Part shown: positions 1,282-30,070 of the stretch, one piece after another | Position numbering within the stretch: position 1 is the stretch's first letter | Layout: every line of letters starts with the position of its first letter | From: Hyphomicrobiales bacterium | GTDB taxonomy: Bacteria > Pseudomonadota > Alphaproteobacteria > Rhizobiales > Aestuariivirgaceae | Length of the DNA stretch: 34,551 bases | Reading direction: 5' to 3' | Assembly (NCBI GenBank): GCA_027024225.1 | Contig: JALVSR010000082.1 | Location: forward strand, 1 to 34,551 | The notes under the pieces: generated by a model | Seen by the model: only the letters and a program-made list of their open reading frames with translations | Databases searched by the model: none | Told to the model about the DNA's origin: nothing | Position numbers and translations under genes: made by a program

Positions 1282-2004
1282 ATGTGGACTCTTGTGAACA
1301 GGGCGAAGTGGCTGCCCGCCGCCGCGGCCACCTGCATGTTGGGCATTGGTGGCGCACATGCGGCGGGCCTGCAGGTCAAGCCGGTGGGGATCGAACTGCA
1401 GGAGCCGGCAAGAGCCGCCAAGCTGACGCTCACCAACAAGAGCCGCAAACCCATCACCGCCCAGGTCCGCATTTACCGCTGGAAACAACAAAACGGCAGG
1501 GACGTGCTGGAACGCACCCGCATGGTGGTGGCCAGCCCGCCCCTGCTGAAGATGCGCCCTGGCGGTCAGTACATCGTGCGCGTGGTGCGATTGTCCAAGG
1601 CGCCGGTGCGGGGCGAGGAGAGCTATCGGCTGCTGGTGGACGAGGTGCCGGAGCGCAAGCGGAAGAAGTCCGGGGTGATTTTCGCCCTGCGCTATTCCAT
1701 TCCCGTGTTCTTCGTCCAGCCCGGCGCAGCTCCGCCGAAAGTGACGTGGAGGGCCAGCATGCGCAAGGGCAGGCTGGTGCTGGTGGCGCACAACGCCGGT
1801 GAGCTTCACCAGAAGGTGTCGAAGCTGCGTGTGGTGCTGCCCGGCGGCAAGGCGAAAACCCTGTTTCCGGGGCTTGCCGGCTACGTGCTGGGCAAGTCCA
1901 CGCGGCGCTGGCAGACGCCGCTGAAGGTGCGCAAGGGCACGACCATCACCATCAAGGGACAAGGCATCAATGGCCCGTTCGTGGCAAAAGCCCGGGTCCG
2001 CTGA
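1282..2004 (+). CDS. Periplasmic pilus chaperone (PapD/FimC superfamily)
   Basis: This chaperone captures pilin subunits in the periplasm and delivers them to the usher by donor-strand complementation. From the ATG at 1282 the protein is 240 residues long, with a signal peptide ending GGAHA. The first immunoglobulin-like domain has LKVKPVGIEL-type strands (seen as LQVKPVGIELQEPARAAKLTLTNK), then RKPITAQVRIYRW, and the G1-type region LLKMRPGGQYIVRVVRL. A hydrophobic FALRYSIPVFFVQPG stretch starts the second domain. I chose 1282 because GGGGGA lies 7 bp upstream. An in-frame ATG at 1255 has only a weak AAAAAGG and would add nine residues before the signal peptide. The gene starts 46 bp after the pilin and overlaps the usher by 35 bp, so it is clearly in one operon. 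Confidence 0.88.
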   Translation: MWTLVNRAKWLPAAAATCMLGIGGAHAAGLQVKPVGIELQEPARAAKLTLTNKSRKPITAQVRIYRWKQQNGRDVLERTRMVVASPPLLKMRPGGQYIVRVVRLSKAPVRGEESYRLLVDEVPERKRKKSGVIFALRYSIPVFFVQPGAAPPKVTWRASMRKGRLVLVAHNAGELHQKVSKLRVVLPGGKAKTLFPGLAGYVLGKSTRRWQTPLKVRKGTTITIKGQGINGPFVAKARVR

Positions 2005-4729
2005 AACCCTTTTTCGCCTTGTCTCACATGACGGGAACAAGAGACGCTGGCTCCGAAAAACGGAGCTGGCGCACTGGGCGTTGGCTCTTGTGCTGTCGTG
2101 CGTTCCGGCCTGGGCCGGCTCCGTGGCGGAGGCCACGACCGAGAGAACCGCTCCCGCAACCGGCATCGCCCTGCCGGCCTTGAAAACCTACAATTTCTCG
2201 CCGGCGCGGCAAATGCTCCAGGCCCGCGATCATGCCGCCTCGGGCTCGGGCCGGGCCGATGCGGAAAGCGGCAGCGTGGAAGTGGTGAAACAACCCGCAC
2301 CGCAAGGCGAACAGGCCGCCATGCCCGGTCCGGCCGATGAAACCATCAGGGTGGAGGACGAAAAGGATGCCGCCGCCCTGACACCGGGGCCACCCCTGGA
2401 CCCGGCGCTGGAGATGCAGACGGGCATTCCGCTCTACCTGGAGGTCTATATCAATGGCCATCCCACCAACCTTATCGCGGAATTCGTGCAGTTGCCGGGC
2501 AATGGCTTCGCGGCCCGCGCAAAGGAACTCGATGATCTGGGGTTCCTTCTGCCGGAGGGCAAGGCGGATGATGAGCTGATACGTCTCTCCGAGCTGGGGG
2601 CCACGGCCAGGTATGACGAAGCCGAGCAGCGTCTGTACATCACGGTGGATACGCAAAGGCTGAAGAAAAAGGTCATCGACCTGGCCGGAACGAACCGGCA
2701 AAAGCCCGAACTCACTCCCAGCGGCACCGGATTCGTGCTGAACTATGGTCTTTATGCTTCCGGGCGCTCGGAAAAGACGTTCACCCGCACCGCATTCGAG
2801 GGGATCTCGGCCAACCTGGAGGGGTGGGTCTATTCCCCTCACGGCACGGTGTTCTCCTCCGGCCTGCTGAAACTGGAAAATACCAGCGGCACCGGCAAGA
2901 CCAGGCTGCGCGGCCGCGCCATCCGGCTGGACACCTACTGGACCTACGCGGATCTAAAGAGCGCGACCACCTGGCTGGTGGGCGACATCATCACCTCCGG
3001 CCCGGCCTGGGCGCGGCCGGTGCGCCTGGGCGGCGTGAAGGTCAGCCGCAGTTTCCGCCTGCGTCCGGATATCATCACCGTTCCCCTGCCCTCCCTTTCC
3101 GGCACGGCGGCGGTGCCCACCACCATCGATGTCTACGTGAACAATCTGAAGGTGCATTCCGGCATGGTGGAGCCGGGCCCCTTCGAGATCCACAATATCC
3201 CGGCCATTTCGCAAGGTGGCGTGGCACGCCTGGTGATGCGCGACGCCTCGGGACGCGAAATCGTGCGCGAGCAGAGCTTCTTCGTTTCTCCCAGGCTCCT
3301 GCGCGAAGACCTGATGGAATTCTCGATTGCTGCGGGCATTCCGCGCAACAGCTATGGCGACGCCTCCTTCGATTACGCCTGGAAACATCCCGGGCTGGCC
3401 GGCAGCATGCGCTATGGCCTGAGCAACACGCTCACGCTGGAGGCGCATGGAGAGGCCGCCCGCAATCTCGTCATGGCCGGTGGCGGTGTCAATTTCACGC
3501 TATTCAACCAGGCGGTCATCTCTCTTGCCGGGGCCGTGTCTCACAGCAAGGAGGGCATGGGATATCTCACGCACGCGGTGCTGGAAACGGGATTCGCCGG
3601 CTTTCAGCTGAATGCCTCCAGCTTGCGCACCTGGGGAGACTTCGTCGATCTGGCCGGGGTGGATGCCTCGCGCATCGCTCCCGACGCGGCAACAGCCATC
3701 TCCAGCATGACCACCTATCCGAAGGCGGTGGAGAGCGTTTCCATCGGCTACACCCTCTCCGACCTGCACGCCTCGGTCGTGACCAGCCTGGTGCATGCCG
3801 ACCCGCGCGACGGAAAGAGAACCCTGACCCTCAACCTCAGCTATCAACAGGGCCTGTGGGGCAAGGCGAGCCTGTATGTGACCGGCATCGTCGATGTGCA
3901 AGACCCGGGCAAACCGAGTGTCTTTGCCGGCTTCCACATGCCCCTTGGCGGAGACAGGTCGCTGAATACCGGAGGCAGTTACGACGCCAAGGGACGGTAT
4001 CGTGCCGAGATGAGCATCTACAAACCCTTGCAAATGAAGGACAATGCAGTGGGATGGCAGGCGCGCGTGACCTATGGCGACCTGAAGTCGCTTTCCGCTT
4101 CGCTGGCCTGGCGCGCGCCGGTCATGACCATACGCGGCAATGTGATGCAACTCGGCAAGGGAACAACGGGACACCTGTCCATCGACGGCGCCCTGGTGGT
4201 GGCGGACAGGGCCGTGTTCGCCGCCAACCGCATCATGGATGCCTTCGCCGTGGTGAATGCCGGGGCGCCAGGCGTGCGCGTGCGTTACGAGAACCGCGAG
4301 GTGGGCAAGACGCGCGGTGACGGACGGTTGCTGGTGACGCAGCTGCGTTCGCTGGAGCGCAACAAGATTTCCATCGATCCGGAAACCCTGCCGGTGGATG
4401 CCATCGTGGAAGATGACAAGACCTACGTGGTGCCGGGCGTGCGCGCGGGCGTGGTGGTGAATTTCAAGACCAGGCGCACCACGGATGCCGCGCTGGTCAT
4501 CCTGCACGACGCCAACGGCAAGCCGCTGCCGCCGGGCACGGAGGTGCGGCTGGAAGGCGTGGAAGAGGTCTTCATGGTGGGTTACGATGGCGAAACCTAT
4601 CTGGAAGGCCTGAAAAAATCCAACCGCATCATCGCGGCAACGGACAAGGGCGAATGCCAGGTCAGCTTCAGCTTCAGCCCGGGCAAGGAGGTGCAGCCCG
4701 TCATCGGGCCGCTCACCTGCACGCCATGA
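1970..4729 (+). CDS. Outer-membrane pilus usher (FimD/PapC family)
   Basis: The usher forms the outer-membrane pore that assembles and secretes the pilus. It is 919 residues long. A hydrophobic signal segment (LAHWALALVLSC, ending AWAG) begins near residue 33. A low-complexity Ala/Glu/Pro linker of about 100 residues precedes the N-terminal usher domain (YLEVYINGHPTNLIAEF). The FPKG-like plug and barrel region includes TYWTYADLKSATTWLVGD and SRSFRLRPDIITVPLPSLSG. The C-terminus carries YVVPGVRAGVVVNF and a terminal Cys in GPLTCTP. The start at 1970 has AAGG just upstream and overlaps the chaperone end. No other ATG, GTG or TTG precedes the signal peptide in frame, so a cytosolic tail of roughly 30 residues before the hydrophobic core is unusual. 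Csu-type ushers are usually shorter; the extra length sits mainly in the N-terminal linker. Confidence 0.9.
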   Translation: MARSWQKPGSAETLFRLVSHDGNKRRWLRKTELAHWALALVLSCVPAWAGSVAEATTERTAPATGIALPALKTYNFSPARQMLQARDHAASGSGRADAESGSVEVVKQPAPQGEQAAMPGPADETIRVEDEKDAAALTPGPPLDPALEMQTGIPLYLEVYINGHPTNLIAEFVQLPGNGFAARAKELDDLGFLLPEGKADDELIRLSELGATARYDEAEQRLYITVDTQRLKKKVIDLAGTNRQKPELTPSGTGFVLNYGLYASGRSEKTFTRTAFEGISANLEGWVYSPHGTVFSSGLLKLENTSGTGKTRLRGRAIRLDTYWTYADLKSATTWLVGDIITSGPAWARPVRLGGVKVSRSFRLRPDIITVPLPSLSGTAAVPTTIDVYVNNLKVHSGMVEPGPFEIHNIPAISQGGVARLVMRDASGREIVREQSFFVSPRLLREDLMEFSIAAGIPRNSYGDASFDYAWKHPGLAGSMRYGLSNTLTLEAHGEAARNLVMAGGGVNFTLFNQAVISLAGAVSHSKEGMGYLTHAVLETGFAGFQLNASSLRTWGDFVDLAGVDASRIAPDAATAISSMTTYPKAVESVSIGYTLSDLHASVVTSLVHADPRDGKRTLTLNLSYQQGLWGKASLYVTGIVDVQDPGKPSVFAGFHMPLGGDRSLNTGGSYDAKGRYRAEMSIYKPLQMKDNAVGWQARVTYGDLKSLSASLAWRAPVMTIRGNVMQLGKGTTGHLSIDGALVVADRAVFAANRIMDAFAVVNAGAPGVRVRYENREVGKTRGDGRLLVTQLRSLERNKISIDPETLPVDAIVEDDKTYVVPGVRAGVVVNFKTRRTTDAALVILHDANGKPLPPGTEVRLEGVEEVFMVGYDGETYLEGLKKSNRIIAATDKGECQVSFSFSPGKEVQPVIGPLTCTP

Positions 4730-4848
4730 AATTGGTTCCGCCTTGCCATCGCCGATTTACCGGCACATAAGGTTTCGCTGGCAAGATGCGCACGATCGAT
4801 ACGGGAACATGACCCGTAGCGCCACGTTTTCTATTCGGATACGACAGC

Positions 4849-5655
4849 ATGGACTTGTTGCAGATCATCGCGCTGGCCGTGGTGCAGGGCATCACGGAAT
4901 TCCTGCCCATCTCGTCCTCGGGCCACCTGATCCTGGTGCCGTTGCTCACCGGCTGGAAGGATCAGGGGCTGATCGTGGACGTGATGGTGCACATGGGGTC
5001 GTTCCTGGCGGTGGTGGTGTATTTCTGGCGCGACGTGCTGGCCATGGCCGGGGGCGTGCTCGACATGGTGCGCGGGCGCATGACGCCGGCGGGACGACTG
5101 GCGTTGATGCTGCTGGTGGGCACCATTCCGGCGGTGGCCTTCGGGCTGTTCATGAAACACTCCGGCCTGCAATACGCCATCCGCGGCGCGTTGATCGTCA
5201 TCATCAACGCGGTGCTGTTCGGCGTGGTGATGCTGCTGGCCGACAAATACGGCCCCAATCGGCGCCGGGCGGAAGATCTGAGCGTGGGGCAAGCCTTCTT
5301 CATCGGCATGGCGCAGGCGGTGGCCATCGTGCCCGGTGTATCGCGCAGCGGCATTACCATGTCGGCGGGACGGGCGCACGGACTGATGCGGGAGGAGGCG
5401 GCGCGCTTTTCCTTTCTGCTGGGCATTCCGGCCATTGCGGGGGCGGGCATGCTGGTGCTGGGCGAAGCCCTGAACAACGGCGTGCGCATCTCGTCCGATG
5501 CCATACTGGCAGGCGCGTTGACATTCTTTGTGGCATTGGCCGCCATCGCCTTCCTGATGAACATCATCAAACGCGTGGGGCTGTTTCCCTTCGTCATCTA
5601 CCGCTTCGCGCTGGCGGCGGTGCTGGCGGGGCTGATGCTGACGGGGCGCATCTGA
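4849..5655 (+). CDS. uppP: Undecaprenyl-diphosphatase
   Basis: UppP (BacA) dephosphorylates undecaprenyl diphosphate at the inner membrane, recycling the lipid carrier for peptidoglycan and surface polysaccharides. The protein has 268 residues, the normal family length, and is strongly hydrophobic with about eight membrane segments. The signature EFLPISSSGHL (Glu17, Ser22-24, His26) and the second motif PGVSRSG (Arg166) are both intact. The ATG at 4849 starts the conserved MDLLQIIALAVVQGITE. A six-base-pair stem, TACGGG/CCCGTA, lies at 4800-4818 in the leader. The gene stands 119 bp after the usher and is probably unrelated to it. The composite palindrome unit 1 follows 45 bp after its stop. 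Confidence 0.95.
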   Translation: MDLLQIIALAVVQGITEFLPISSSGHLILVPLLTGWKDQGLIVDVMVHMGSFLAVVVYFWRDVLAMAGGVLDMVRGRMTPAGRLALMLLVGTIPAVAFGLFMKHSGLQYAIRGALIVIINAVLFGVVMLLADKYGPNRRRAEDLSVGQAFFIGMAQAVAIVPGVSRSGITMSAGRAHGLMREEAARFSFLLGIPAIAGAGMLVLGEALNNGVRISSDAILAGALTFFVALAAIAFLMNIIKRVGLFPFVIYRFALAAVLAGLMLTGRI

Positions 5656-5700
5656 GCGCTCGCTCTCGTTTCCGTTCATCTCAACATGAGCGGCGGATGC

Positions 5701-5784
5701 TCCGCCCTGTCGATGGCGTCAAGGGGCATGCCCGCCTCCGGCGGCGGGCCTCAGGCCCGCCCTTGACGCCATCGACAGGGCGGA
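5701..5784 (-). repeat. Composite palindrome unit 1, A element
   Basis: The arms at 5701-5725 and 5760-5784 are perfectly complementary over 25 bp. The arm runs from TCCGCCCTG to GTCAAGGG. On the minus strand the 34 nt interior folds as GGCGGGCC-tga-GGCCCGCC followed by CCGCC-gga-GGCGG, then CATGCCCC. The core matches copies 2, 3 and 4, while the outer arm does not. This copy is in minus orientation judged by its core. Confidence 0.85.
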
Positions 5785-5800
5785 ACACAATCGAACTTGC

Positions 5801-5861
5801 CCTCCCCCACCGGGAAGAAAAAGTGCCCGTTGTGTGCACTTTTTCTTCCCGGTGGGGGAGG
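5801..5861 (-). repeat. Composite palindrome unit 1, B element
   Basis: A perfect 26 bp stem pairs 5801-5826 with 5836-5861 around a 9 nt loop. The inner half of the arm reads AAGAAAAAGTGC, shared with the B elements of units 2 and 3. The outer half is C-rich and specific to this copy. The flanks TCGAAC (5791-5796) and GTTCGA (5861-5866) extend the pairing beyond a small bulge. It ends about 40 nt before the next gene and lacks a T run, so it is not a standard terminator. Confidence 0.85.
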
Positions 5862-5903
5862 TTCGATAAAATCCTTCATTCCTTTTCCACGACGGTCTCG
5901 CGC

Positions 5904-8042
5904 ATGACCTTCCAGCTGCCGGACAGATCGGCCATCACCACGCCACTGGCATCGCTGGAGCTGGTGGTGCTGGACACCGAAACCACCGGCCTTGACGTGG
6001 CGCGCGACCGCATCATTGAACTGGCAAGCGTGCGCGTGCGGGCGGGTGAAGTGCTGGAAGAGGAGACCTTTTCCACCTTCGTCAATCCGGGCCTGCCCAT
6101 TTCCAGGGCCTCCACCGGCGTGCATGGCATCACCGACGCCGACGTGGCCGAGGCCCCCTCCTTCGCCGAGGCCGTGCACGAGTTCGCCGAGTGGGCCGGT
6201 CCGCATGTCATTGGCGGTTACATGGTGGGGTTCGATCTCGCCATCATGCGGGCGGAGCATCACCGCCATGGCCTGCGCTGGCAGATGCCGCTGGCGCTGG
6301 ATGTGCAGGCGCTGGCGCAGCTGGTGGCTCCGCGCCTGCCGGACTTCTCGCTGGAAACCATCGCCGCCTGGCTGGAAATCGATATAGGAACGCGCCATCG
6401 GGCGCTGGCCGATGCACTCACGGCCGCGCATATTTTCGTGCGGCTGCTGCCCCTGTTGCGCGAGCGCAACATTCGCACCCTGGCCGAGGCCCTGCGCGCG
6501 GTGGAGGAACTCCAGTCGCGCCGGGGCGCGGCGGCGGCGGGGCTGCCCGCGGCCTGGGAGCTGGAAAAACCGCAATGGCGGCCGGCGAAGCGGGTGGACA
6601 GCTATCCCTTTCGTCACCGCGTGCACGAAGTCATGCGGCGCGAAATCGCCACCATCGGCTCGCACGCCGGCGTGGAAGAAGCCCTGCAGACCATGCTGAG
6701 GAAGCAGGTGAGCTCGCTGTTCGTGCCGCCGGAAGAGGAAGGGGGCGAATGGGGCATCATCACCGAGCGCGACGTGCTGCGCGCCATCGCGGCGAACGGC
6801 CCCAGCGTGCTGCGCCACCAGGTGGGGCAATATGCCAGCTTTCCGCTCATCGCGGTGGCGGAAAACGAGTTCATCTACCGCGTGCTGGCGCGCATGGCGG
6901 AGCTCAACATCCGCCACATGGCCGTGCGCAGCCGGGTGAACGACGCAATCATCGGCGCGCTGACACAGGGCGACCTGCTGCGCTACCGGGCCAGCGAGGC
7001 GGTGGTGTTCACCGAGCGCATCAACAAGGCGCAGTCGGCCGAAGAACTGGCCGAGCTGTGGCCCATGCTGCTGGACGTGGTGCGCGCCATGCACGCGGAC
7101 AATGCTCCGGCCAATGACATCGCCGCAGTGATCGCGCGGGAGCTGCGGGCGCTGACGGCGCGGGCGTGCGAGCTGGCGCTGGCGCAAATGGAGGAGAACG
7201 GGCGGGGCAGGGCGCCGGTTGAGCATGGCATGCTGGTGCTGGGCTCCGCCGGGCGCGGCGAAAGCCTGTTGGCGATGGATCAGGACAACGCCATCATTTA
7301 TGCCGACGTGCCGCGGCAGGGGGCGGCAAAGGTGGATGCCTGGTTCGCCGACTATGGCGCGCGGGTGAACGAAATCCTGAACGACGCCGGGGTGCCGCTG
7401 TGTCAGGGGGGCGTGATGGCGCGCGAGGCGAAATGGCGCAAAAGCCGAACGCAATGGCTGAAGACGGTGGACAAGTGGCTTTCCACCGCCGAGCCGGAAG
7501 ACCTGTTGCACGTGGATATCTTCTTTGACCTGCGCCGGGCGTATGGCGACCGCGAATTGGTGCGGGACTTTCGGCGGGAGTGCCTGGAAAAGGCCAAGAG
7601 GGCGCGCACGTTGTTGAAATTCCTGAGCCTGCAGGCGGCGGACTTCGAATCGCCGCTTGGCTGGTTTGGACGCCTGCGAACCGATCACGAAGGTCGGGTG
7701 GACCTGAAAAAGGGTGGGCTGATGCCCATTCACTCCGCCGCGCGGGTGCTGGCCTTGCGGCTGGGCAGCGTGAAGCGGGCGACCCCGGCGCGGCTACGCG
7801 CCGCCGCGAGGGCCGGCATATGCCCCAAGCCGCAGGCGGAAAACCTGATACAGGCCCACCGGATCCTGCTGGGCACCGTGCTGGCGCAACAGTTGCGCGA
7901 CATCGAGCGGGGCCTGAAACCGTCGAACAGGGTGACCGTTTCGGAACTCGGTGCCTATGAACGCGACGAATTGCGCTGGGCCCTGGAGCAGGTGCGCTCC
8001 ATCCCTTCGCTGCTGGGTGTGCCGGAATTGAGGATGACTTGA
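5904..8042 (+). CDS. DnaQ-like exonuclease fused to CBS pair and DUF294 nucleotidyltransferase domains
   Basis: This is a 712-residue multidomain cytosolic protein. Residues about 18-190 are a DEDDh 3'-5' exonuclease: LDTETTGL gives Asp24 and Glu26, GFDLAIM supplies the second Asp, and HRALADA gives the His and final Asp. Residues about 235-365 form two CBS repeats (VSSLFVPPEEEGGEWGIITERDVLRAI, then IRHMAVRSRVNDAIIGALTQGDLLRY), which usually bind adenine nucleotides. Residues about 370-560 carry the DUF294 nucleotidyltransferase motif LGSAGRGESLLAMDQDNAIIYAD, related to the GlnD uridylyltransferase fold, followed by a helical DUF294 C-terminal domain. The ATG at 5904 directly precedes the exonuclease fold. 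The frame is open further upstream, but only through uppP. The cellular substrate is not known to me; nucleotide-sensing regulation through CBS is an inference. Confidence 0.87.
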   Translation: MTFQLPDRSAITTPLASLELVVLDTETTGLDVARDRIIELASVRVRAGEVLEEETFSTFVNPGLPISRASTGVHGITDADVAEAPSFAEAVHEFAEWAGPHVIGGYMVGFDLAIMRAEHHRHGLRWQMPLALDVQALAQLVAPRLPDFSLETIAAWLEIDIGTRHRALADALTAAHIFVRLLPLLRERNIRTLAEALRAVEELQSRRGAAAAGLPAAWELEKPQWRPAKRVDSYPFRHRVHEVMRREIATIGSHAGVEEALQTMLRKQVSSLFVPPEEEGGEWGIITERDVLRAIAANGPSVLRHQVGQYASFPLIAVAENEFIYRVLARMAELNIRHMAVRSRVNDAIIGALTQGDLLRYRASEAVVFTERINKAQSAEELAELWPMLLDVVRAMHADNAPANDIAAVIARELRALTARACELALAQMEENGRGRAPVEHGMLVLGSAGRGESLLAMDQDNAIIYADVPRQGAAKVDAWFADYGARVNEILNDAGVPLCQGGVMAREAKWRKSRTQWLKTVDKWLSTAEPEDLLHVDIFFDLRRAYGDRELVRDFRRECLEKAKRARTLLKFLSLQAADFESPLGWFGRLRTDHEGRVDLKKGGLMPIHSAARVLALRLGSVKRATPARLRAAARAGICPKPQAENLIQAHRILLGTVLAQQLRDIERGLKPSNRVTVSELGAYERDELRWALEQVRSIPSLLGVPELRMT

Positions 8043-16692: not shown

Positions 16693-16754
16693 CATTTTTG
16701 GTGCGAAAATGGCACAATACCCGCTCGGAAAATGGATATACGGGAGGCGGAGCC

Positions 16755-17948
16755 ATGAGCATGAATACCTCGCACATCATGCCCACCTACGCGCGGGCCG
16801 ACGTGGCCTTCACCCGCGGCGAGGGTGCGCGCCTGTATGATGACAAGGGCCGCGAATACATCGACCTGTTGGCTGGCATTGGCGTTGTCTCGCTGGGACA
16901 TTGCCATCCGCACCTTGTGGAATCGGTACAGAAGCAGGCGGAGAAGCTCTGGCACGTCTCCAACCTGTTCCGCATTCCCGAGGCCGAGAAGGCGGCGGCA
17001 CGGTTGTGCGCCATGACCTTTGCCGACGTGGTATTCTTCAACAACTCCGGGGCGGAGGCCATCGAGGCGGCCATCAAGGTGGCGCGCAAGCATTTCGCCG
17101 CCGCCGGAGAGCCTCAGAAGAACCGCATCATCACCTTCGAGGGTGCCTTTCATGGCCGCACGCTGGGGGCGCTGGCCGCCGGTGGAAATCTCAACCACAT
17201 GGAAGGCTTCGGGCCCCATTGCCCGGGCTTCATCCAGTTGCCGCGGGACAATCTGCACGCGGTGGAAACGGCCATCACGCCTCAGGTGGCGGCCATCCTG
17301 CTGGAGCCCATTCAGGGTGAAGGCGGCATTCATGCCTTTTCCGACGAGTTCCTGCGGGGCTTGCGCAAGCTGTGCGATGAGCATGGCATCCTGCTGATCT
17401 TCGATGAAATCCAGTGTGGCATGGGCCGCACGGGCGAGATGTTCGCTTGCCAGCATGCCGGCGTGTGGCCGGACATCATGGCGATTGCAAAGGGCTTGGG
17501 CGGGGGCTTTCCCGTCGGTGCCTGCCTGGCAACAAGGAAGGCGGCTTCCGGCATGGTGCCGGGCACGCATGGCTCCACCTTCGGCGGCAATCCGCTGGCC
17601 ATGGCGGCGGTCAACGCCGTGCTGGACGAGATGGAAAAGCCCGAGTTCCTGCCCATGGTGCGCGACACGGCGGAAAAGCTGGACCTGCGCTTGCGTGAAC
17701 TGGCGGAGACACATTGCGAGGTGGTGCTGGGTTTGCGTGGGCGCGGGCTGATGCGGGGGCTGCACCTGCACGAGGCCGCGCCGAGCGCCGAGCTGGTGCG
17801 GCTGGCGCGCGAGGAAGGCGTCATCGTCTGCGGCGCATCGGAAAACGTGGTGCGCCTGCTGCCGCCGCTGACCATTTCGGCAGACGAGCTGCACGAAGGC
17901 CTCGCCCGGCTCGATGCCGCATTGACGAAACTGGGAAAGGCGGGCTAA
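16755..17948 (+). CDS. argD: Acetylornithine aminotransferase
   Basis: ArgD converts N-acetylglutamate semialdehyde to N-acetylornithine with glutamate, step 4 of arginine synthesis, and depends on PLP. The 397-residue protein is a class III aminotransferase: YIDLLAGIGVVSLGHCHPHL near the start, FFNNSGAEAIEAAIKVAR for phosphate binding, AFHGRTLGAL, LLEPIQGEGG, and IFDEIQCGMGRTG. The PLP lysine is Lys246 in IAKGLGGGFPVGA. The ATG at 16755 has GGGAGG 7 bp upstream. argF follows 42 bp downstream, and this pairing supports the arginine role over other class III activities. Confidence 0.94.
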   Translation: MSMNTSHIMPTYARADVAFTRGEGARLYDDKGREYIDLLAGIGVVSLGHCHPHLVESVQKQAEKLWHVSNLFRIPEAEKAAARLCAMTFADVVFFNNSGAEAIEAAIKVARKHFAAAGEPQKNRIITFEGAFHGRTLGALAAGGNLNHMEGFGPHCPGFIQLPRDNLHAVETAITPQVAAILLEPIQGEGGIHAFSDEFLRGLRKLCDEHGILLIFDEIQCGMGRTGEMFACQHAGVWPDIMAIAKGLGGGFPVGACLATRKAASGMVPGTHGSTFGGNPLAMAAVNAVLDEMEKPEFLPMVRDTAEKLDLRLRELAETHCEVVLGLRGRGLMRGLHLHEAAPSAELVRLAREEGVIVCGASENVVRLLPPLTISADELHEGLARLDAALTKLGKAG

Positions 17949-17990
17949 AGCCCGGAACTTCCCGGCAAACACCAAGACGAGCGTGAGCAA

Positions 17991-18923
17991 ATGCCACATT
18001 TCATCGACATCGCCGATTTCTCGAAGGAAGCCCTGCTGGCCATGCTGGCGGAGGCAAAGCGCCGCAAGGCTGCACGCGCCGGCCTGCCGAAGGGTGCGGC
18101 GGATGCCGATGCGCCGCTCGCCGGCCACGTGCTGGCCTTGATCTTCGAAAAGCCCTCCACCCGCACGCGCACCTCCTTCGACATGGCCATGCGCCAGCTG
18201 GGTGGCGGGGCCATGACGCTCAATTCGCATGATCTGCAGCTGGGGCGTGGCGAATCCATCGAGGACACCGCGCGGGTGCTGGGGCGGATGGTAGACGGCG
18301 TCATGGCGCGCGTGCACGAGCATGAGAAAATCACCGCCCTGGCCGAACACGCGGGCGTGCCTGTCATCAACGGGTTGAGCGATCTTTCGCATCCATGCCA
18401 GATCATGGCCGACTTGCAAACGCTGGAAGAGCACAAGAGCCGGCTCGAGGGCCTCACCGTGGCGTGGGTGGGGGACTGCGCCAATGTCACGCGCTCGTGG
18501 ATAGAGGCGGCGGCGCTTCTGGGCATGACGTTCAAAATCGGCGCCCCGCAGGGCTACTGGCCGGATGAAGAGGTGCTGGCCTGGGCCGATGAAAAAGGTG
18601 GCGAGGTGCTGATTACCGAGGACCCGGCCGAAGCGGTCGAGGGCGCGGATTGCGTGATGACCGACACGTGGATTTCCATGCATCACCGCGAAGAGGAAAA
18701 GGCCAGGCGCATGGCCGACCTGATGCCCTACCAGGTGACACCAGAGCTGATGGCGAAGGCAAAGGAAGATGCTATCTTCATGCACTGCCTGCCGGCGCAC
18801 CGCGGCGAGGAAGTGGCGGCGGAGGTCATCGACGGGCCGCGGTCGGTGGTGTTTGACGAGGCCGAAAACCGCCTGCATGCGCAAAAGGCCGTGTTGCTGC
18901 ACTGCTTCGGCAAATTGGGATGA
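17991..18923 (+). CDS. argF: Ornithine carbamoyltransferase
   Basis: ArgF makes citrulline from ornithine and carbamoyl phosphate. The 310-residue protein has the carbamoyl-phosphate motif STRTR at residues 56-60, HPCQ in the middle (LSDLSHPCQIMADLQTL), the ornithine-side motif with GDCANVTRSW, and the C-terminal MHCLPAHRGEEV. A short Ala/Gly-rich loop at residues about 26-42 is a little longer than in many homologues. It is 42 bp after argD on the same strand and shares an operon with it. Transcription should stop at the C2 hairpin downstream. hslO, which often follows argF in alphaproteobacteria, is absent. Confidence 0.95.
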   Translation: MPHFIDIADFSKEALLAMLAEAKRRKAARAGLPKGAADADAPLAGHVLALIFEKPSTRTRTSFDMAMRQLGGGAMTLNSHDLQLGRGESIEDTARVLGRMVDGVMARVHEHEKITALAEHAGVPVINGLSDLSHPCQIMADLQTLEEHKSRLEGLTVAWVGDCANVTRSWIEAAALLGMTFKIGAPQGYWPDEEVLAWADEKGGEVLITEDPAEAVEGADCVMTDTWISMHHREEEKARRMADLMPYQVTPELMAKAKEDAIFMHCLPAHRGEEVAAEVIDGPRSVVFDEAENRLHAQKAVLLHCFGKLG

Positions 18924-22147: not shown

Positions 22148-22278
22148 GCCCTCCGCCTTCTTCGCCGCAAGATCCCTCAAGCTGCATACAGTGAATGATT
22201 TCATGGTTAACAGTTTGTTGACGACTTGTCTGCAATCTGGAGCCAGAAGCAATGCATGGATGAAACAGCGGGAAGGCC

Positions 22279-23103
22279 ATGCCTGTGAAACATTTCAGCT
22301 GGATGGGCGCTCCGGGTCGCAGGGTCATGCTGGGCCTGGGCCTGCTGGCGGCCGCCCTGGCTCTGACAGGGTGCAAGACCACCTCGGCGGTGCGTGGCGC
22401 CAACATCACCACCGGCTCCACCTCTACCGCCGATGAGCGTCCCGGCTCCCTGCGCGAAGTGATGGAGCTGCAGGAGCAATGGAAAAAGCGCCCAGGTGAC
22501 CTGACCATTGGCCTCAGGCTGGCGGACGCGCACAAGCGGCTGGGGCAGCTCGAGCAGCAGGTGGAGGTGCTGAAGAAAGTGCTGGAGGCCAACCCGCGCC
22601 GCCAGGATGTGCGCCGGCATTACGCCATCGAGCTGTTGCGCGCCAACCGCCCGGTGCAGGCGGAGCAGGAACTGCGGCGTTTGCTGTCGCTGGGACAGCG
22701 CGACTGGAAAGTGTTCAACGCGCTGGGCTCGGCGCTGGCGGCGCAAGGCCGGCACGAGGAGGCGCGGCAGAACTACATGCTGGCGCTGAAGGTGGCGCCG
22801 AACAACCCCAAGGTCCTGAACAACCTGGCCATGAGCTATCTGCTGGACAGCAAGCCCGGAGAGGCGGAGCGGTATCTGCGCCAGGCCATGAACCTGGCCC
22901 GCGGCAAGCTGGCCATGAAGGTGCGGCAGAACCTGGCGCTGGCGGTGGGCTTGCAAGGGCGTTTCAAGGAGGCGCGCTACCTGGCCAGCCACGATCTCTC
23001 GCCGCAGCAAGTGGAGATCAACATGGCCTACCTGCGCAGGATGCTGGGCGAGGGTCAGGCCTGGCAGCAGATTGCGGGTGCGGGCAACAAGAGCGGGAGC
23101 TGA
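22279..23103 (+). CDS. TPR lipoprotein, TadD-like
   Basis: This is a 274-residue tetratricopeptide protein. The N-terminus has a lipoprotein signal peptide with lipobox LTGC (Cys32), so it is probably anchored in the envelope. Residues about 60-230 contain successive TPR helices: RPGDLTIGLRLADAHKRLGQLEQQVEVLKKVLEANP, VFNALGSALAAQGRHEEARQNYMLALKVAPNNPKVLNNLAMSYLLDSKPGEAERYLRQAM. This resembles TadD, the assembly lipoprotein of Flp pili, but no other tad genes are in the window, so the name stays general. GGGAAGG lies 3-9 bp ahead of the ATG at 22279. Confidence 0.82.
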   Translation: MPVKHFSWMGAPGRRVMLGLGLLAAALALTGCKTTSAVRGANITTGSTSTADERPGSLREVMELQEQWKKRPGDLTIGLRLADAHKRLGQLEQQVEVLKKVLEANPRRQDVRRHYAIELLRANRPVQAEQELRRLLSLGQRDWKVFNALGSALAAQGRHEEARQNYMLALKVAPNNPKVLNNLAMSYLLDSKPGEAERYLRQAMNLARGKLAMKVRQNLALAVGLQGRFKEARYLASHDLSPQQVEINMAYLRRMLGEGQAWQQIAGAGNKSGS

Positions 23104-23175
23104 ACGGAAAAGGTCCTGCGCCGGAAAGGGAGCGCGGGCTTGTCGCATCCCGGCCGCTGGGGTATGCCGGCGTTC

Positions 23176-23970
23176 ATGCTCGTCATCGCCAGCTGGAACA
23201 TCAATTCCGTGCGCCTGCGAAAGCACCAGGTGGCGGCCTTTCTGGAGGCCTGGCGGCCGGATGTGCTGTGCCTGCAGGAAATCCGCTGCGCCACCGAGAG
23301 CTTTCCCGCCGCCACCTTTCGCAAGCTGGGGTATGGCCACATGGCCGTGCGCGGACGCAAGAATCACCACGGCGTGGCCATCGTGTCGCGCCGTCCCATC
23401 AGCTTCGAGGACGCCCATGTCTTTTGCGGGCTGGACGACGCTCGCCATGTCATGGCCGTCATCGACGGCGTGCGCATCCACTCGCTCTATGTGCCCGCCG
23501 GAGGTGATGTGCCCGATGCCGGCGTGAACCCGAAGTTCGCCCACAAGCTCGCCTTCCTGGAGGAAATGCGCCACTGGCTGAGGGCGGAGGCACGGCAGGG
23601 TGCGCCGGTGGTGCTGACCGGCGACCTGAACGTGGCGCCGCTGGAGGATGACGTGTGGGATCATGCGCGCATGCGTCGGGTGATCACGCACACGGAGGTG
23701 GAGCGCGAGGCCCTGATGAAGGTGTTGCGCGAAAGCGGCCTGCATGATGTGGTGCGAGCGCACCTGCCACCGCCGCGCAAGGTGTTCACCTGGTGGAGCT
23801 ATCGTGCCGGAGCGGACTGGCGGCGGCACGACCGTGGCCGGCGACTCGATCATGTCTGGGCCACGGCAGACCTGCTCATGCGGGCGCGGGAGGTGGCCAT
23901 CGCGAAGGAAACCCGCAGCTGGCCCCGCCCGTCCGACCATGTTCCCGTGCTGGCGCGATTCGATATCTGA
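23176..23970 (+). CDS. xthA: Exodeoxyribonuclease III family AP endonuclease
   Basis: This is an apurinic/apyrimidinic endonuclease and 3' exonuclease of base excision repair. From the ATG at 23176 the protein has 264 residues. It has the EEP-fold motifs: IASWNINSVRLRKHQ, CLQEIRC (Glu35, metal ligand), GDLNVAPLEDDVW (catalytic Asp and Asn), WSYRAGADWRRHDRGRRLDHVW, and the terminal SDHVPVLARF His. I chose 23176 because relatives begin with M-x-I-A-S-W-N. ATG 23164 and TTG 23140 (with AGGGAG upstream) are in-frame alternatives. It follows the TPR gene by 72 bp and converges with the Tim44-like gene. Confidence 0.92.
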   Translation: MLVIASWNINSVRLRKHQVAAFLEAWRPDVLCLQEIRCATESFPAATFRKLGYGHMAVRGRKNHHGVAIVSRRPISFEDAHVFCGLDDARHVMAVIDGVRIHSLYVPAGGDVPDAGVNPKFAHKLAFLEEMRHWLRAEARQGAPVVLTGDLNVAPLEDDVWDHARMRRVITHTEVEREALMKVLRESGLHDVVRAHLPPPRKVFTWWSYRAGADWRRHDRGRRLDHVWATADLLMRAREVAIAKETRSWPRPSDHVPVLARFDI

Positions 23971-27899: not shown

Positions 27900-28529
27900 T
27901 TATGACCCTGTTCGGTCCGCCATTTCCCGCACCAGGGCGGGCAAGTCGGCCTGCGTTCGCAGGTCATCGCAGGCGCGTACAAGGAACACCCGCAAGGTGT
28001 TGGTCACGTAATCCACATCCGGCGCCTTCAGGTCCGGGTGGATGGGAATGATGTCGAAAACCTCTTGCGCCCGCTGTCTTGCGATATCCTTCACCGGCAG
28101 AGGCGCGCGGCTGGCGAGATCTTCGACAAGCCCGGCCAGGCGCCGCCGGGTGATTTGGGCGAAATCCGCGCCCAATGCGGCTGGCATTTTCCCTTGCTGG
28201 CCAGCGATGATGCGCGCGCCCGCCTGCCGCAACCAGTCGTGCAACACGGCGGGCTCGGACACTTCGGGGCGCAGCACGGCGTCGAGCATTTCCGCCACAT
28301 CCAGCAGGGTGATGCTCCAGGCCCGCCAGCTGGCCCGATGCACCGCCTGCTGAAACGGCGCCTCGGAAAACAGCCGCTGCCAGTTCATCCCCGCACGGGC
28401 GCGGCAGTATTCGATGACGCATTTTTGCGCAATGAAGGCCGCGCGCGCCTGCCAGAAATCCTCCAGTTGCCGCGCCGAGGCGAGGCGGGCGCGCCCGAAC
28501 AGGCCTTTCAGCATTTCCGGCAGTGGCAT
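27900..28529 (-). CDS. Unrecognised protein, helical and probably cytosolic
   Basis: I do not recognise this family. The 209-residue protein has no signal peptide or membrane segment. It reads as mostly helical and rich in Arg and Ala. Notable stretches are [60 protein letters not shown], and a C-terminal [31 protein letters not shown]. Two Cys near residues 37 and 42 and several Trp residues in the first half stand out. Codon use fits the rest of the strand, which supports real coding. The ATG at 28529 is chosen because GAGAGG lies about 9 bp upstream; GTG 28538 is an alternative. It lies just upstream of tRNA-Phe and secB. Confidence 0.7.
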
Positions 28530-28918
28530 GGCTGACACCTCTCATGCATCTCATGCATCGTCGTCACTTTCTCGTCGCTCCTACAATCGGGGATGATCGA
28601 CCGATGATCAACGACCCGGCAGCCTGCTGGAGTAACAGCCCCGTTGGGGCAACCCCTCCGGAGCCTTCATCGCCGGCATTGGCTCCTGTCATGACTTTTC
28701 CATGCCGTTCCATGCCGTTTGCGTTTCAGGCGAAATGTGTGCAGTGTCATACGTGTCCGAAGGAACGCGCGCAGGCGCAGGTGGCGCCTGTCGGCCCGGA
28801 GGGCTCATGGATGCTCCGTTTCGTCGTCTTGTAGCGCTGGCCACATAACACTATACCACTTGGACCGTGCTTGTGGCCTGCATGCTGCGGGAAAAAATTG
28901 GCAAGCCGCTCATCAACG
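28530..28918. other. Gene-free region ahead of the polysaccharide cluster
   Basis: No credible gene is seen. It holds a tandem 10 bp repeat TTCCATGCCG (28698-28717), a CTCATGCAT direct repeat (28542-28558), and GATGATC repeated near 28590-28607. A possible promoter, TTGTAG at 28829-28834 and TATACC at 28852-28857 with 17 bp spacing, could drive the first glycosyltransferase. GC content falls from here onward. Confidence 0.4.
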
Positions 28919-30070
28919 ATGAAAGCTCCTGAAAGCATGAAAGAAAACAAACATCCTCGAAAAATATTGTATATTTGCGACTGGCTTCCCCCGGATTTTG
29001 GGGCGACGGGACAATATAGCGCGCTTTTCGCCCGCCGCTACGCGGAAGAGGGAAATGATGTCATCCTGGCGGGCCTGTCTTCCACCGGCGCATCGACGAC
29101 GACCGAAAACATCGGGCGAGGCAGGCTCACCGTCATAAAGTTGCACGCCCGGAAATACGACAAGACGCGTGCGCTGCAGCGAATGCTATGGACGGCCAAG
29201 GTCAATACCCGCCTGGCATTTCGCCTGCTGCCTCACATGCGCCGCGTGGATGAAATCATTTTTACGGGAAGCCCACCCCTTTTTCTGCACTGGATCGCCC
29301 CTCTCAACATTCTGCTGCGAAAGCACCTGGTTTATCGCATCACGGATTTCCATCCGGAATGCCTGATGGCAACCATGCCCTCTGTACCGTTTTGGCTGAA
29401 TCTGCTTTACAGGATGACCATTTTCTGGCGACGACGGATTGCCGAATTCGAGGTGCTGGGCCAGGACCAGATGGCGCGGCTGGAGGAGATCGGCATTCCG
29501 CGCAGCCGCATGCGGCTGAAGCGCGACCCTTCTCCGGTGCACATCTCGCCTGACACCCAGCCCTTGCCACGGCCGGTATCGGACGAAGGGAAATTCCTGC
29601 TGCTTTATTCCGGCAACTGGGGCGTGGCGCATGATTACCAGACTTTCGTGAAGGCCTACGAGCGCCATCATCGCGAAGGCTCGGGAAGAATGCTGCTGTG
29701 GCTCAACGCCACGGGCATGAATGCCGAAGAGGTGGAAGCGGCGCTAAAACGCTCCAACCTGCCGTTCATCCGCAGCCAGCCGGTGCCCCTGGAGGACCTG
29801 GCAAGCTTGCTCGTGACCCCGGACGCGCACCTCATAACCCTGAAGGACGCCTTCGTGGGATATGTCATGCCTTCCAAGGTTTACGGCTGCATCGAATCAG
29901 GAAGGCCGGTGCTCTTCATCGGCAGCAAGGACTCAGATGTGCATCTTCTGTGTACGGAACGCTCGTCGGCGCCCTATTTTCGGGTGGATGTGGGAGATGT
30001 CGATGCATGCGCGGAAACGCTCGAAAAACTTGCCGACATGATCGCGGTCGACCATGGTGAGCATGCATGA
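28919..30070 (+). CDS. Glycosyltransferase, GT4-like (GT-B fold)
   Basis: This is a cytosolic sugar transferase, about 383 residues. The N-terminal Rossmann-like half begins KILYICDWLPPDFGATGQYSALFARRYAEEGNDVILAGLSS, the usual GT4 acceptor-side start with a flexible Gly loop. The second half has FLLLYSGNWGVAHDYQTFVKAYERHHREG (donor-domain start) and later AHLITLKDAFVGYVMPSKVYGCIESGRPVLFIG, in place of the classic EGFGxxxxE motif. It has a Lys/Ser pattern typical of WbuB-like members. Start assignment is weak: ATG 28919 or 28937, neither with a good ribosome-binding site. The sugar and acceptor are unknown. It is the first gene of the low-GC polysaccharide cluster. Confidence 0.82.
   Translation: MKAPESMKENKHPRKILYICDWLPPDFGATGQYSALFARRYAEEGNDVILAGLSSTGASTTTENIGRGRLTVIKLHARKYDKTRALQRMLWTAKVNTRLAFRLLPHMRRVDEIIFTGSPPLFLHWIAPLNILLRKHLVYRITDFHPECLMATMPSVPFWLNLLYRMTIFWRRRIAEFEVLGQDQMARLEEIGIPRSRMRLKRDPSPVHISPDTQPLPRPVSDEGKFLLLYSGNWGVAHDYQTFVKAYERHHREGSGRMLLWLNATGMNAEEVEAALKRSNLPFIRSQPVPLEDLASLLVTPDAHLITLKDAFVGYVMPSKVYGCIESGRPVLFIGSKDSDVHLLCTERSSAPYFRVDVGDVDACAETLEKLADMIAVDHGEHA

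Follow-up and report, generated by a model that had tools for sequence, protein, structure and literature searches.

We identified a gene that encodes, in a single chain, a DEDDh exonuclease, a CBS pair, a DUF294 nucleotidyltransferase (NT) and a helical DUF294_C domain, and this fusion is a covalent counterpart of a gene pair, exonuclease plus DUF294, that is itself conserved. Our preferred reading, to which we give a probability of about 0.35, is that the protein reversibly nucleotidylates a monocarboxylate-uptake protein under the control of its CBS pair, and that the exonuclease acts as the eraser. The gene lies on contig JALVSR010000082.1 of a Hyphomicrobiales bacterium (assembly GCA_027024225.1), the 34,551 nucleotides of which constitute the window analysed here (Table 1).

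Table 1. Features of the window discussed in the text.
Feature	Position	Strand	Basis
Fused CDS, 712 aa: DEDDh exonuclease - CBS pair - DUF294 nucleotidyltransferase (NT) - DUF294_C	5904..8042	+	
RNase_T / DEDDh exonuclease domain, residues 21-178	5964..6437	+	Pfam, Foldseek, conservation
Linker of low confidence, residues 208-230, pLDDT < 50	6525..6593	+	AlphaFold model
CBS pair, ~residues 240-362, end approximate; T287-D290, T354-D357	6621..6989	+	Pfam, conservation
DUF294 nucleotidyltransferase domain, residues 391-532	7074..7499	+	Pfam; GlnE/DrrA fold
NT motif GSAGRGESLLAMDQDN, residues 447-462	7242..7289	+	sequence, conservation
DUF294_C helical domain, residues 570-700	7611..8003	+	Pfam and profile search of genomes
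ORF of 212 aa, member of the unannotated ~210-aa family UP	27900..28538	-	

The fused gene and its domains

The gene is one uninterrupted reading frame (frame 1, ATG to TGA), and its start is supported by two same-genus homologues whose Met aligns there (MTFQLP and MSFALP). A longer gene starting at a TTG at 4743 was rejected, as the added part would run through the BacA/UppP gene in a different frame and the Met of the same-genus homologues sits at 5904 instead. An overlapping minus-strand frame (5751-7733) was likewise set aside as a mere mechanical ORF listing.

All parts were recovered by Pfam above their curated cut-offs: RNase_T (PF00929; E 1.5e-30, 107.3 bits), CBS in two stretches (E 5.8e-17), DUF294 (PF03445; E 1.4e-35, 122.6 bits versus a cut-off of 21) and DUF294_C (PF10335; E 1.4e-35, 122.6 bits versus a cut-off of 22.5). 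Pfam places no cNMP_binding domain in the fused protein. Against NCBIfam the best match of the exonuclease half was PRK07883 (DEDD exonuclease domain-containing protein), which at 125.1 bits does not reach its curated cut-off of 495 and covers only residues 18-198. T/S-x-x-D is the ribose motif of adenylate-binding CBS repeats. T287 and D290 of the first repeat are kept in 26/26 rows, as is T/S354 of the second, with D357 found in 20/26 (window included throughout). The CBS pair is a likely energy-sensing module.

A sequence-only reading of this stretch had proposed that an intact DEDDh exonuclease (D24, E26, H165xxxxD170), a CBS pair and an intact DUF294 motif (GSAGRGES and DQDN) are joined in one chain. 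This description holds in full: D111 completes the DEDDh set, and the same arrangement recurs as a single open frame in many genomes. Its further suggestion, that the protein could couple energy state to nucleic-acid degradation, is possible but is not the reading we prefer.

Conservation and origin of the fusion

Fused homologues encoded as a single reading frame comprise 41 rows from many genera, 40 of which are distinct (L229 is a duplicate of L032). The five exonuclease residues (D24, E26, D111, H165 and D170) and five residues of the transferase (G447, S448, R451, D459 and D461) are identical in 41/41 of these rows, window included. All 41 fused exonucleases fall into one clade (0.924). 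The NT tree recovers the same group with the addition of a single fragment from a contig end (0.941), and its neighbours there are split operons of the same order. L055, L065 and L105 (a duplicate of L045) were excluded from the trees, L053 was excluded from the combined clade test and L114 is truncated where its contig stops. As judged by both trees, the fusion arose once. An assembly or sequencing error joining two genes, for which the existence of unfused pairs could be cited, is ruled out by these homologues: since the fused exonucleases form one clade with catalytic residues intact in every row, the fusion is no artefact. The degenerate sites that the sequence-only reading had named as a possible objection are absent from the fused family, and so is its other concern, a mistaken join.

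Pairing of exonuclease and DUF294 genes across genomes

We surveyed 249 Pseudomonadota genomes, taking DUF294_C matches of at least 60 bits. Such a match was found in 96 of the 249, giving 136 DUF294 genes in 133 regions; among the matches listed, those below 60 bits were mostly frames of 900-1,200 aa with the look of GlnD/GlnE. Distances to the exonuclease were taken by domain positions, because frame ends give too short a distance when the domain occupies the distal part of a long frame. Of the 136 DUF294 genes, 5 are fused to the exonuclease and 113 have it no more than 2.5 kb away on the same strand, making 118 in all; the 113 comprise 91 within 600 bp and a further 22 within 2.5 kb. The 18 that lack a same-strand exonuclease within 2.5 kb include 7 with an exonuclease within 6 kb and 11 with none in the stretch. 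The pair is also found in Bacillota and, judged by place and frame, in loci from Bacteroidota, Campylobacterales and Thermodesulfobacterium. Our literature search, for which subscription papers and preprints were mostly out of reach, returned no publication on a DUF294-exonuclease fusion, and the literature found assigns no substrate to DUF294 proteins.

Fold of the transferase half

By sequence, the NT half has no solved homologue at E <= 1. The structural model of NT plus DUF294_C (pLDDT 95.5, pTM 0.92) resembles GlnE (1v4a, Z 25.1, rmsd 2.8 over 295 residues; 3k7d, Z 24.0, rmsd 3.2 over 293 residues) and DrrA/SidM of Legionella (6yx5, Z 24.4, rmsd 3.6 over 286 residues), which sharpens the earlier label of GlnD-like. 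Next in rank come a partial DrrA at Z 11.5 and remaining entries at Z <= 8.6. On this model, a GlnE/DrrA-type transferase fold is well supported. GlnE presumably contains neither an exonuclease nor a CBS domain. It shares the NT and helical domain fold over ~290 residues (Z 24-25, 15-16% identity), yet has two NT domains per chain whereas the fused protein has one DUF294 domain, and the latter is thus not GlnE proper. The kinship of DUF294_C with GlnE and DrrA is already published, as a 2013 paper sets GlnD/GlnE, DUF294_C and DrrA in one row (PMC3710099). 1v4a is the AMP-removing half of GlnE; given that the best match removes AMP, the fold is silent on whether the NT writes, erases or does both.

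Genomic neighbourhood

The pairs frequently have a sodium:solute symporter in their vicinity. A symporter or DUF4212 gene lies within 6 kb of 28/41 fused rows, versus 0/32 loci that have an exonuclease of the same superfamily and no DUF294 (from other taxa and hence a rough control). Symporters occur near 32/40 DUF294 genes without a close exonuclease and near 52/91 with one. As they are no rarer without it, the link to symporters is independent of the exonuclease. Counts for sensor-kinase neighbours were excluded, because that model cross-matches symporters. The fused gene of the window itself has no adjoining symporter and a BacA/UppP gene lies upstream; the symporter and small subunit of the MxtR/ErdR (CrbS/R) monocarboxylate module are not beside it. 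In the same genome DUF4212 and a symporter (SSF) are found on a different contig, C126.

An unfused counterpart is known from Pseudomonas. According to two papers (PMC9927547, PMC8402216), PP_0354 (CBS) and PP_0353 (RNase_T exonuclease) of P. putida KT2440 form one operon that belongs to the acetate/pyruvate regulon, ErdR binds the PP_0354 promoter, growth on pyruvate is harmed by deletion of PP_0353 or actP-I and not of PP_0354, and the homologues in P. aeruginosa PAO1 lie beside actP and yjcH. The likeness to the fused protein is drawn from these published descriptions; the P. putida pair consists of two genes with the exonuclease second, whereas the fused protein is one chain with the exonuclease first. 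The P. fluorescens regulon member Pflu5625 combines cAMP-binding, CBS and nucleotidyltransferase parts and is predicted to nucleotidylate (PMC5715377). Its deletion had a negligible effect on acetate, which counts against our preferred reading.

Proposed function and alternatives

We hypothesise that the fused protein unites in one chain the two partners of a widespread pair, exonuclease and CBS-nucleotidyltransferase, whose role would be to adjust the uptake of monocarboxylates (acetate/pyruvate-type) or the signalling connected with it. The DUF294 and DUF294_C half would be the writer, attaching rather than removing an NMP; the nucleotide would probably be AMP and the modified protein side chain probably that of Tyr. 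The CBS pair would bind adenine nucleotides and set which half is active, whilst the DEDDh half would erase the mark by hydrolysing the NMP-O-protein phosphodiester, as SidD does for DrrA and the N-terminal NT does in GlnE. In relatives the same parts are encoded by genes close to one another, often with acetate/pyruvate-type transporters alongside, and so the nuclease may be the 'off switch' for the attached nucleotide. Of the two genes of the P. putida pair, only PP_0353 is harmful to lose, which fits a target that stays modified when the eraser is missing and stays free when the writer is missing.

The eraser role is tentative, with the odds somewhat against it. A DEDD oligoribonuclease cleaves the p-nitrophenyl ester of TMP, which counts in favour because this aryl-nucleotide bond resembles NMP-tyrosine, and snake venom phosphodiesterase releases AMP from adenylylated glutamine synthetase. 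To our knowledge GlnE and FicD require no nuclease, which speaks against such a role. One study describes RNase Z as a deAMPylase (PMC12663964), and RNase Z with SelO is a precedent for a nuclease taking AMP off proteins; however, RNase Z is a metallohydrolase-fold endonuclease and the SelO writer a pseudokinase, whereas the fused protein pairs DEDDh with NT. The same study counts against the eraser in that RNase T failed to deAMPylate either sodA-AMP in vitro or sucA-AMP in cells, and in that it calls RNase Z specific for the SelO-made modification. The genes for DrrA/SidM and SidD, a writer and its eraser, lie side by side (PMC12409994), but SidD has a phosphatase-like fold and the target is host Rab1, whereas the candidate eraser here is a DEDDh domain.

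A rather unlikely, more specific version is that one polypeptide unites a GlnE-fold writer, a CBS pair that senses adenylates and a de-nucleotidylase derived from a DEDDh exonuclease, with UP or a sodium:solute symporter as the possible alphaproteobacterial target. On this version DEDDh nucleases would represent a new fold among protein de-nucleotidylases, and unfused pairs in several phyla would operate likewise. UP is a possible partner of the fused protein, its gene being directly upstream of the fused gene in 16/41 fused rows and 20 kb away in the window. A search of solved structures gave the family one match, which is not credible (E 0.79), only single members match Pfam (best E 0.024) and the three members scanned had no match in NCBIfam. 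Tyr44 of UP is kept in 26/27 rows of A4; as a modification site it is a lead only, because L046 (in A4) and L031 (outside A4) carry Phe.

DUF294 proteins are common, and the pairing, the fusion and the AMPylator fold replace an imprecise annotation with a proposed writer and eraser that can be tested and that would be tied to acetate and pyruvate uptake. If our preferred reading is true, a nuclease fold would join the few protein de-nucleotidylases, and the pyruvate phenotype of P. putida, which within the pair is limited to the exonuclease deletion, would gain an explanation.

Several other functions deserve consideration. The exonuclease may trim or degrade RNA, for example mRNA for uptake or the TCA cycle, in which case the unit would couple energy state to RNA decay and the CBS-NT part would regulate, place or nucleotidylate the exonuclease. 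This is a real possibility, although we would not bet on it: the exonuclease fold is nearest DnaQ/epsilon/PolC/RNase T (Foldseek) with all catalytic residues present, only the exonuclease deletion of the P. putida pair gave a phenotype, and the P. putida authors propose mRNA decay with an RNA substrate of the exonuclease's own. However, the NT that commonly accompanies the exonuclease has an intact active site and the fold of GlnE/DrrA and needs a substrate of its own, and besides the exonuclease no RNA-binding domain rises above the Pfam cut-off in the fused protein.

Tailing enzymes occur among those with the NT fold, and DEDDh enzymes take off 3′ nucleotides. The NT could thus add nucleotides to an RNA 3′ end or a small molecule for the exonuclease to remove, by the same pairing logic as with a protein target, but we consider this improbable as the TUTase 3hiy ranks far below GlnE/DrrA (Foldseek E 0.55 versus 1e-6 to 1e-5). 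Less probable again is synthesis by the NT of a small nucleotide signal, e.g. an oligoadenylate, for the exonuclease to break down. HalB is among the fold matches (Z 6.6-7.4), with one of its entries solved with oligodeoxyadenylate, and DEDD enzymes are reported to degrade dinucleotides; nevertheless a Z of 7 compares poorly with 24-25 for GlnE/DrrA, and no effector gene was seen among the ten neighbour representatives scanned. We regard a defence or CRISPR-associated protein as very unlikely despite matches of the PADLOC DEDDh and PDC-S48 models (E 3.9e-34 and 3.7e-29), which are confined to the exonuclease half. The ten representatives of recurring neighbours scanned included no cas or defence gene, and a search of viral contigs with P0001 as the only query found no relative, which also counts against defence and against a phage origin of the gene.

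Variation among unfused relatives

The NT and exonuclease trees of 120 unfused pairs correlate (r 0.60; permutation maximum 0.07), a result that shared genome ancestry alone can give. The GS...DxD core of the NT (G447, S448, D459 and D461) is intact in 190/191 rows. Candidates for its third carboxylate are D542, present in 184/191 rows, and D538, found mainly in fused and exonuclease-upstream rows. A few catalytic sites deviate in unfused relatives; in one case (L214) the partner exonuclease retains none of its five catalytic residues beside an intact NT, which counts against our preferred reading.

The fused gene

The sequence-only reading had placed a DEDDh exonuclease, a CBS pair and a DUF294 nucleotidyltransferase in one chain. 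This was confirmed, as the gene is a single open one of 712 amino acids whose Pfam domains all score over cut-off (see table). The best 25 of the 35 NCBIfam families matched concern the exonuclease half only, each under its own cut-off. Whole-sequence matches among solved structures fell in the exonuclease or CBS part, and the sequence search found no solved structure for the transferase part. Upstream lie a BacA/UppP gene and two strong inverted repeats. Elsewhere in the window, there is an outer-membrane usher gene, for which no chaperone or pilin was seen among the 20 window frames scanned, and there are three long frames with no Pfam match at 1e-5, some of which may be shadow frames.

Features of the window; residue positions are those of the fused protein
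Feature	Position	Strand	Remark
Usher gene	1970-4726	+	PF00577, PapC_C
BacA/UppP gene	4849-5652		upstream of fused gene
Inverted repeat 1	5698-5725/5760-5787		28 nt arms, 96%; between BacA/UppP gene and fused-gene start codon
Inverted repeat 2	5801-5826/5836-5861		26 nt arms, 100%; between BacA/UppP gene and fused-gene start codon
Fused gene	5904-8042	+	
RNase_T	residues 21-178		Pfam
CBS	two stretches		Pfam
DUF294	residues 391-532		Pfam
DUF294_C	residues 570-700		Pfam
Long frame	16695-18902	-	
Long frame	22210-23940	-	
UP family gene	27900-28538	-	
Long frame	28871-30067	+	

Recurrence and site conservation

The proposed domain survey of homologues was carried out and the fusion recurs. It is present in one frame in 13 of 40 related genomes, in one of which the contig stops within it, and in another of the 40 (G032) it appears as fragments at the ends of contigs. 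A scan of named genomes kept 80 loci, many with the exonuclease only; here, the fusion occupies a single frame in 26 loci among L021-L066, of which one is truncated. Their hosts are mostly Alphaproteobacteria (Bradyrhizobium, Stappia, Nitratireductor, Hyphomicrobium, Taklimakanibacter) and include three MAGs labelled Gammaproteobacteria. One-frame fusion in so many genomes rules out an error or artefact of joining two genes.

Once further genomes had been merged in, the set comprised 191 rows for the transferase. Of these, 41 are fused (40 of them distinct, as loci L229 and L032 have identical transferase regions), 10 have the exonuclease upstream, 121 have it downstream and 19 are without, meaning that no same-strand exonuclease lies closer than 700 bp by frame ends. 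In two alignments of fused proteins (A1 with 13, A2 with 26), neither the DEDDh residues nor the GS...DQD motif varies. Degenerate exonuclease sites, which would have spoken against the sequence-only reading, were not found in fused rows: among 171 exonucleases compared, all five residues (D24, E26, D111, H165, D170) are intact in 41/41 fused and 10/10 upstream cases. The motif II Asp, D111, is Glu in 42/120 downstream exonucleases (e.g. loci L115 and L148), whose common clade has 49 tips (support 0.997). Four downstream exonucleases show other changes: residue 111 is Ile in L183, Asn replaces residue 165 in L059 and residue 170 in L139 (which also has the Glu at 111), and L214 differs at all five positions. 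Thus, all five are identical in 126/171, or in 167/171 if Glu counts as acceptable at position 111. Of the 191 transferase rows, 190 keep an intact core, the exception being L139 (transferase gene 5212-7236), where the Asp pair is Val and Asn. With both halves deviating, this locus looks as if the two had been lost together.

Origin of the fusion

On the exonuclease tree, all 41 fused members group in a single clade (support 0.924). On the tree of transferases, the narrowest clade that takes in all 41 (support 0.941) includes just one additional tip, L114, which is a contig-end fragment. Adding nine split operons in which, as in the fused chain, the CBS-transferase follows the exonuclease (locus L053 left out) gives 52-tip clades with support of 0.891 and 0.981, each containing two tips of neither kind. 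Therefore, a single fusion event in an exonuclease-then-CBS-transferase operon is the most likely origin. A cNMP_binding domain occurs in downstream-type loci L056, L112 and L113, and is absent from L054, of the same type, and from the fused protein. Our literature search found no published account of an exonuclease-DUF294 fusion; the pair of which it is a variant is already known but uncharacterised.

The exonuclease and DUF294 as a pair

PF10335 scored over cut-off in 102 of 249 Pseudomonadota genomes, the weakest matches looking like GlnD/GlnE, and reached at least 60 bits in 96, the window's own included. The listed places of at least 60 bits outside the window were fetched (133 regions, 95 genomes), and they hold 136 genes for DUF294 proteins. 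Judged by where the domains lie, 5 are fused to an exonuclease; 91 have one on the same strand within 600 bp (89 downstream, 2 upstream), in a further 22 it follows on the same strand at a distance of 1.3-2.5 kb, 7 have one elsewhere within 6 kb, and in 11 none was found in the fetched stretch. In Cytobacillus spongiae, DUF294 is followed by a 3′-5′ exonuclease. The order in Ruegeria sp. TM1040 is DUF4212, symporter, DUF294, a hypothetical protein (7442-7960 of locus L258) and exonuclease. Tree distances of the two halves correlate, with r of 0.60 for 120 unfused pairs (permutation maximum 0.07) and 0.70 for the 41 fused (permutation maximum 0.18), a correlation to which common descent of the genomes contributes. 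We consider that exonuclease and DUF294 form one functional unit, with a probability of about 0.85.

Predicted fold and possible mechanism

The full-protein model (26 sequences) had a pLDDT of 86.7 and a pTM of 0.64, with residues 208-230 flexible; the structures similar to its exonuclease part are DnaQ, epsilon, ExoX and RNase T. For the model of the transferase (27 sequences; pLDDT 95.5, pTM 0.92), Foldseek found four chains at E <= 0.001: GlnE 3k7d A, 3k7d B and 1v4a, and DrrA 6yx5. VIA-align ranked GlnE 1v4a first (Z 25.1, rmsd 2.8, 295 residues), then DrrA 6yx5 (Z 24.4, rmsd 3.6, 286 residues) and GlnE 3k7d (Z 24.0, rmsd 3.2, 293 residues), followed by a partial DrrA match (Z 11.5) and others of at most 8.6. 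A relationship between DUF294_C, GlnD/GlnE and DrrA had already been published (PMC3710099). The modelled fold points to protein nucleotidylation chemistry, and, as it matches both the AMP-adding (3k7d) and the AMP-removing (1v4a) half of GlnE, is silent on direction.

One explanation is that the transferase half would add NMP to a protein, inactivating it, and the exonuclease half would remove it. Work on Pseudomonas putida (PMC9927547; PMC8402216) describes PP_0354/PP_0353 as an operon, with ErdR binding the PP_0354 promoter; deletion of PP_0353 or actP-I, not of PP_0354, harmed growth on pyruvate, and none of the three deletions had an effect at 20 mM acetate. An exonuclease phenotype with no transferase phenotype is what such a pair predicts if the modified target is inactive, whilst the authors suggest mRNA decay (PMC9927547). 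In P. fluorescens, Pflu5625 (cAMP-binding, CBS, nucleotidyltransferase) belongs to the CrbS/R regulon; nucleotidylation is its predicted mode of action, and deleting it made a negligible difference on acetate (PMC5715377).

Removal is chemically feasible, since TMP p-nitrophenyl ester, whose aryl-O-P-O-nucleoside bond resembles that of NMP-tyrosine, is a cleavable substrate for a DEDD oligoribonuclease (PMC6390093), and RNase Z takes AMP off proteins (PMC12663964). Against it, RNase T did not remove AMP from proteins in the latter study, and we regard removal by the exonuclease half as doubtful. That the transferase half acts on a protein is somewhat probable, and rated no higher given that its closest structural match is the half of GlnE that takes AMP off. 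The addition-and-removal explanation as a whole is offered tentatively. We infer the CBS ligand from a sequence motif. The sequence-only reading, in which energy state could be coupled to nucleic-acid degradation or nucleotidylation of a partner, is partly supported, and sharpened by the GlnE/DrrA-like fold of the transferase half.

Gene neighbourhood

Within 6 kb, 28/41 fused, 7/10 upstream and 82/121 downstream rows, and 10/19 without an exonuclease, have a sodium:solute symporter or DUF4212. In the survey alone, these were near 4/5 fused genes, 52/91 with a close exonuclease and 32/40 of the rest. Therefore, this neighbourhood does not follow the exonuclease. It was seen at 0/32 superfamily-exonuclease loci without DUF294, a rough control of mostly other taxa. 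A representative symporter was assigned to the VC_2705 family, a small subunit to TIGR03647; BLAST clusters, with one member each scanned, place a sensor-kinase at 21 loci and a LuxR-type regulator at 13. DUF4212 occurs in 13/14 related genomes with the fusion versus 8/26 without (Fisher 2e-4, the genomes not being independent); in the window's genome it and the symporter are on a different contig from the fused gene.

Lastly, UP, a family of ~210 aa, has no credible Pfam or PDB match and no NCBIfam match for three members scanned. In 16/41 fused rows it immediately precedes the fused gene (same strand, at most 400 bp away), in 6 more it is elsewhere within 6 kb, and in 18 it is absent from the stretch; within 6 kb it is found in 4/10 upstream rows and 0/121 downstream rows. 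Because the UP model was built from loci of this sort, a survey of 192 genomes of the window's class is the fairer test: UP occurred in 30, DUF294_C of at least 80 bits in 38 and both in 27 (Fisher 7e-21, kinship ignored). Among the 40 relatives, UP is in 10/14 genomes with the fusion and 2/26 without. UP may be a target, an adaptor or something else. The window's own copy lies 20 kb from the fused gene and adjoins tRNA-Phe and SecB.
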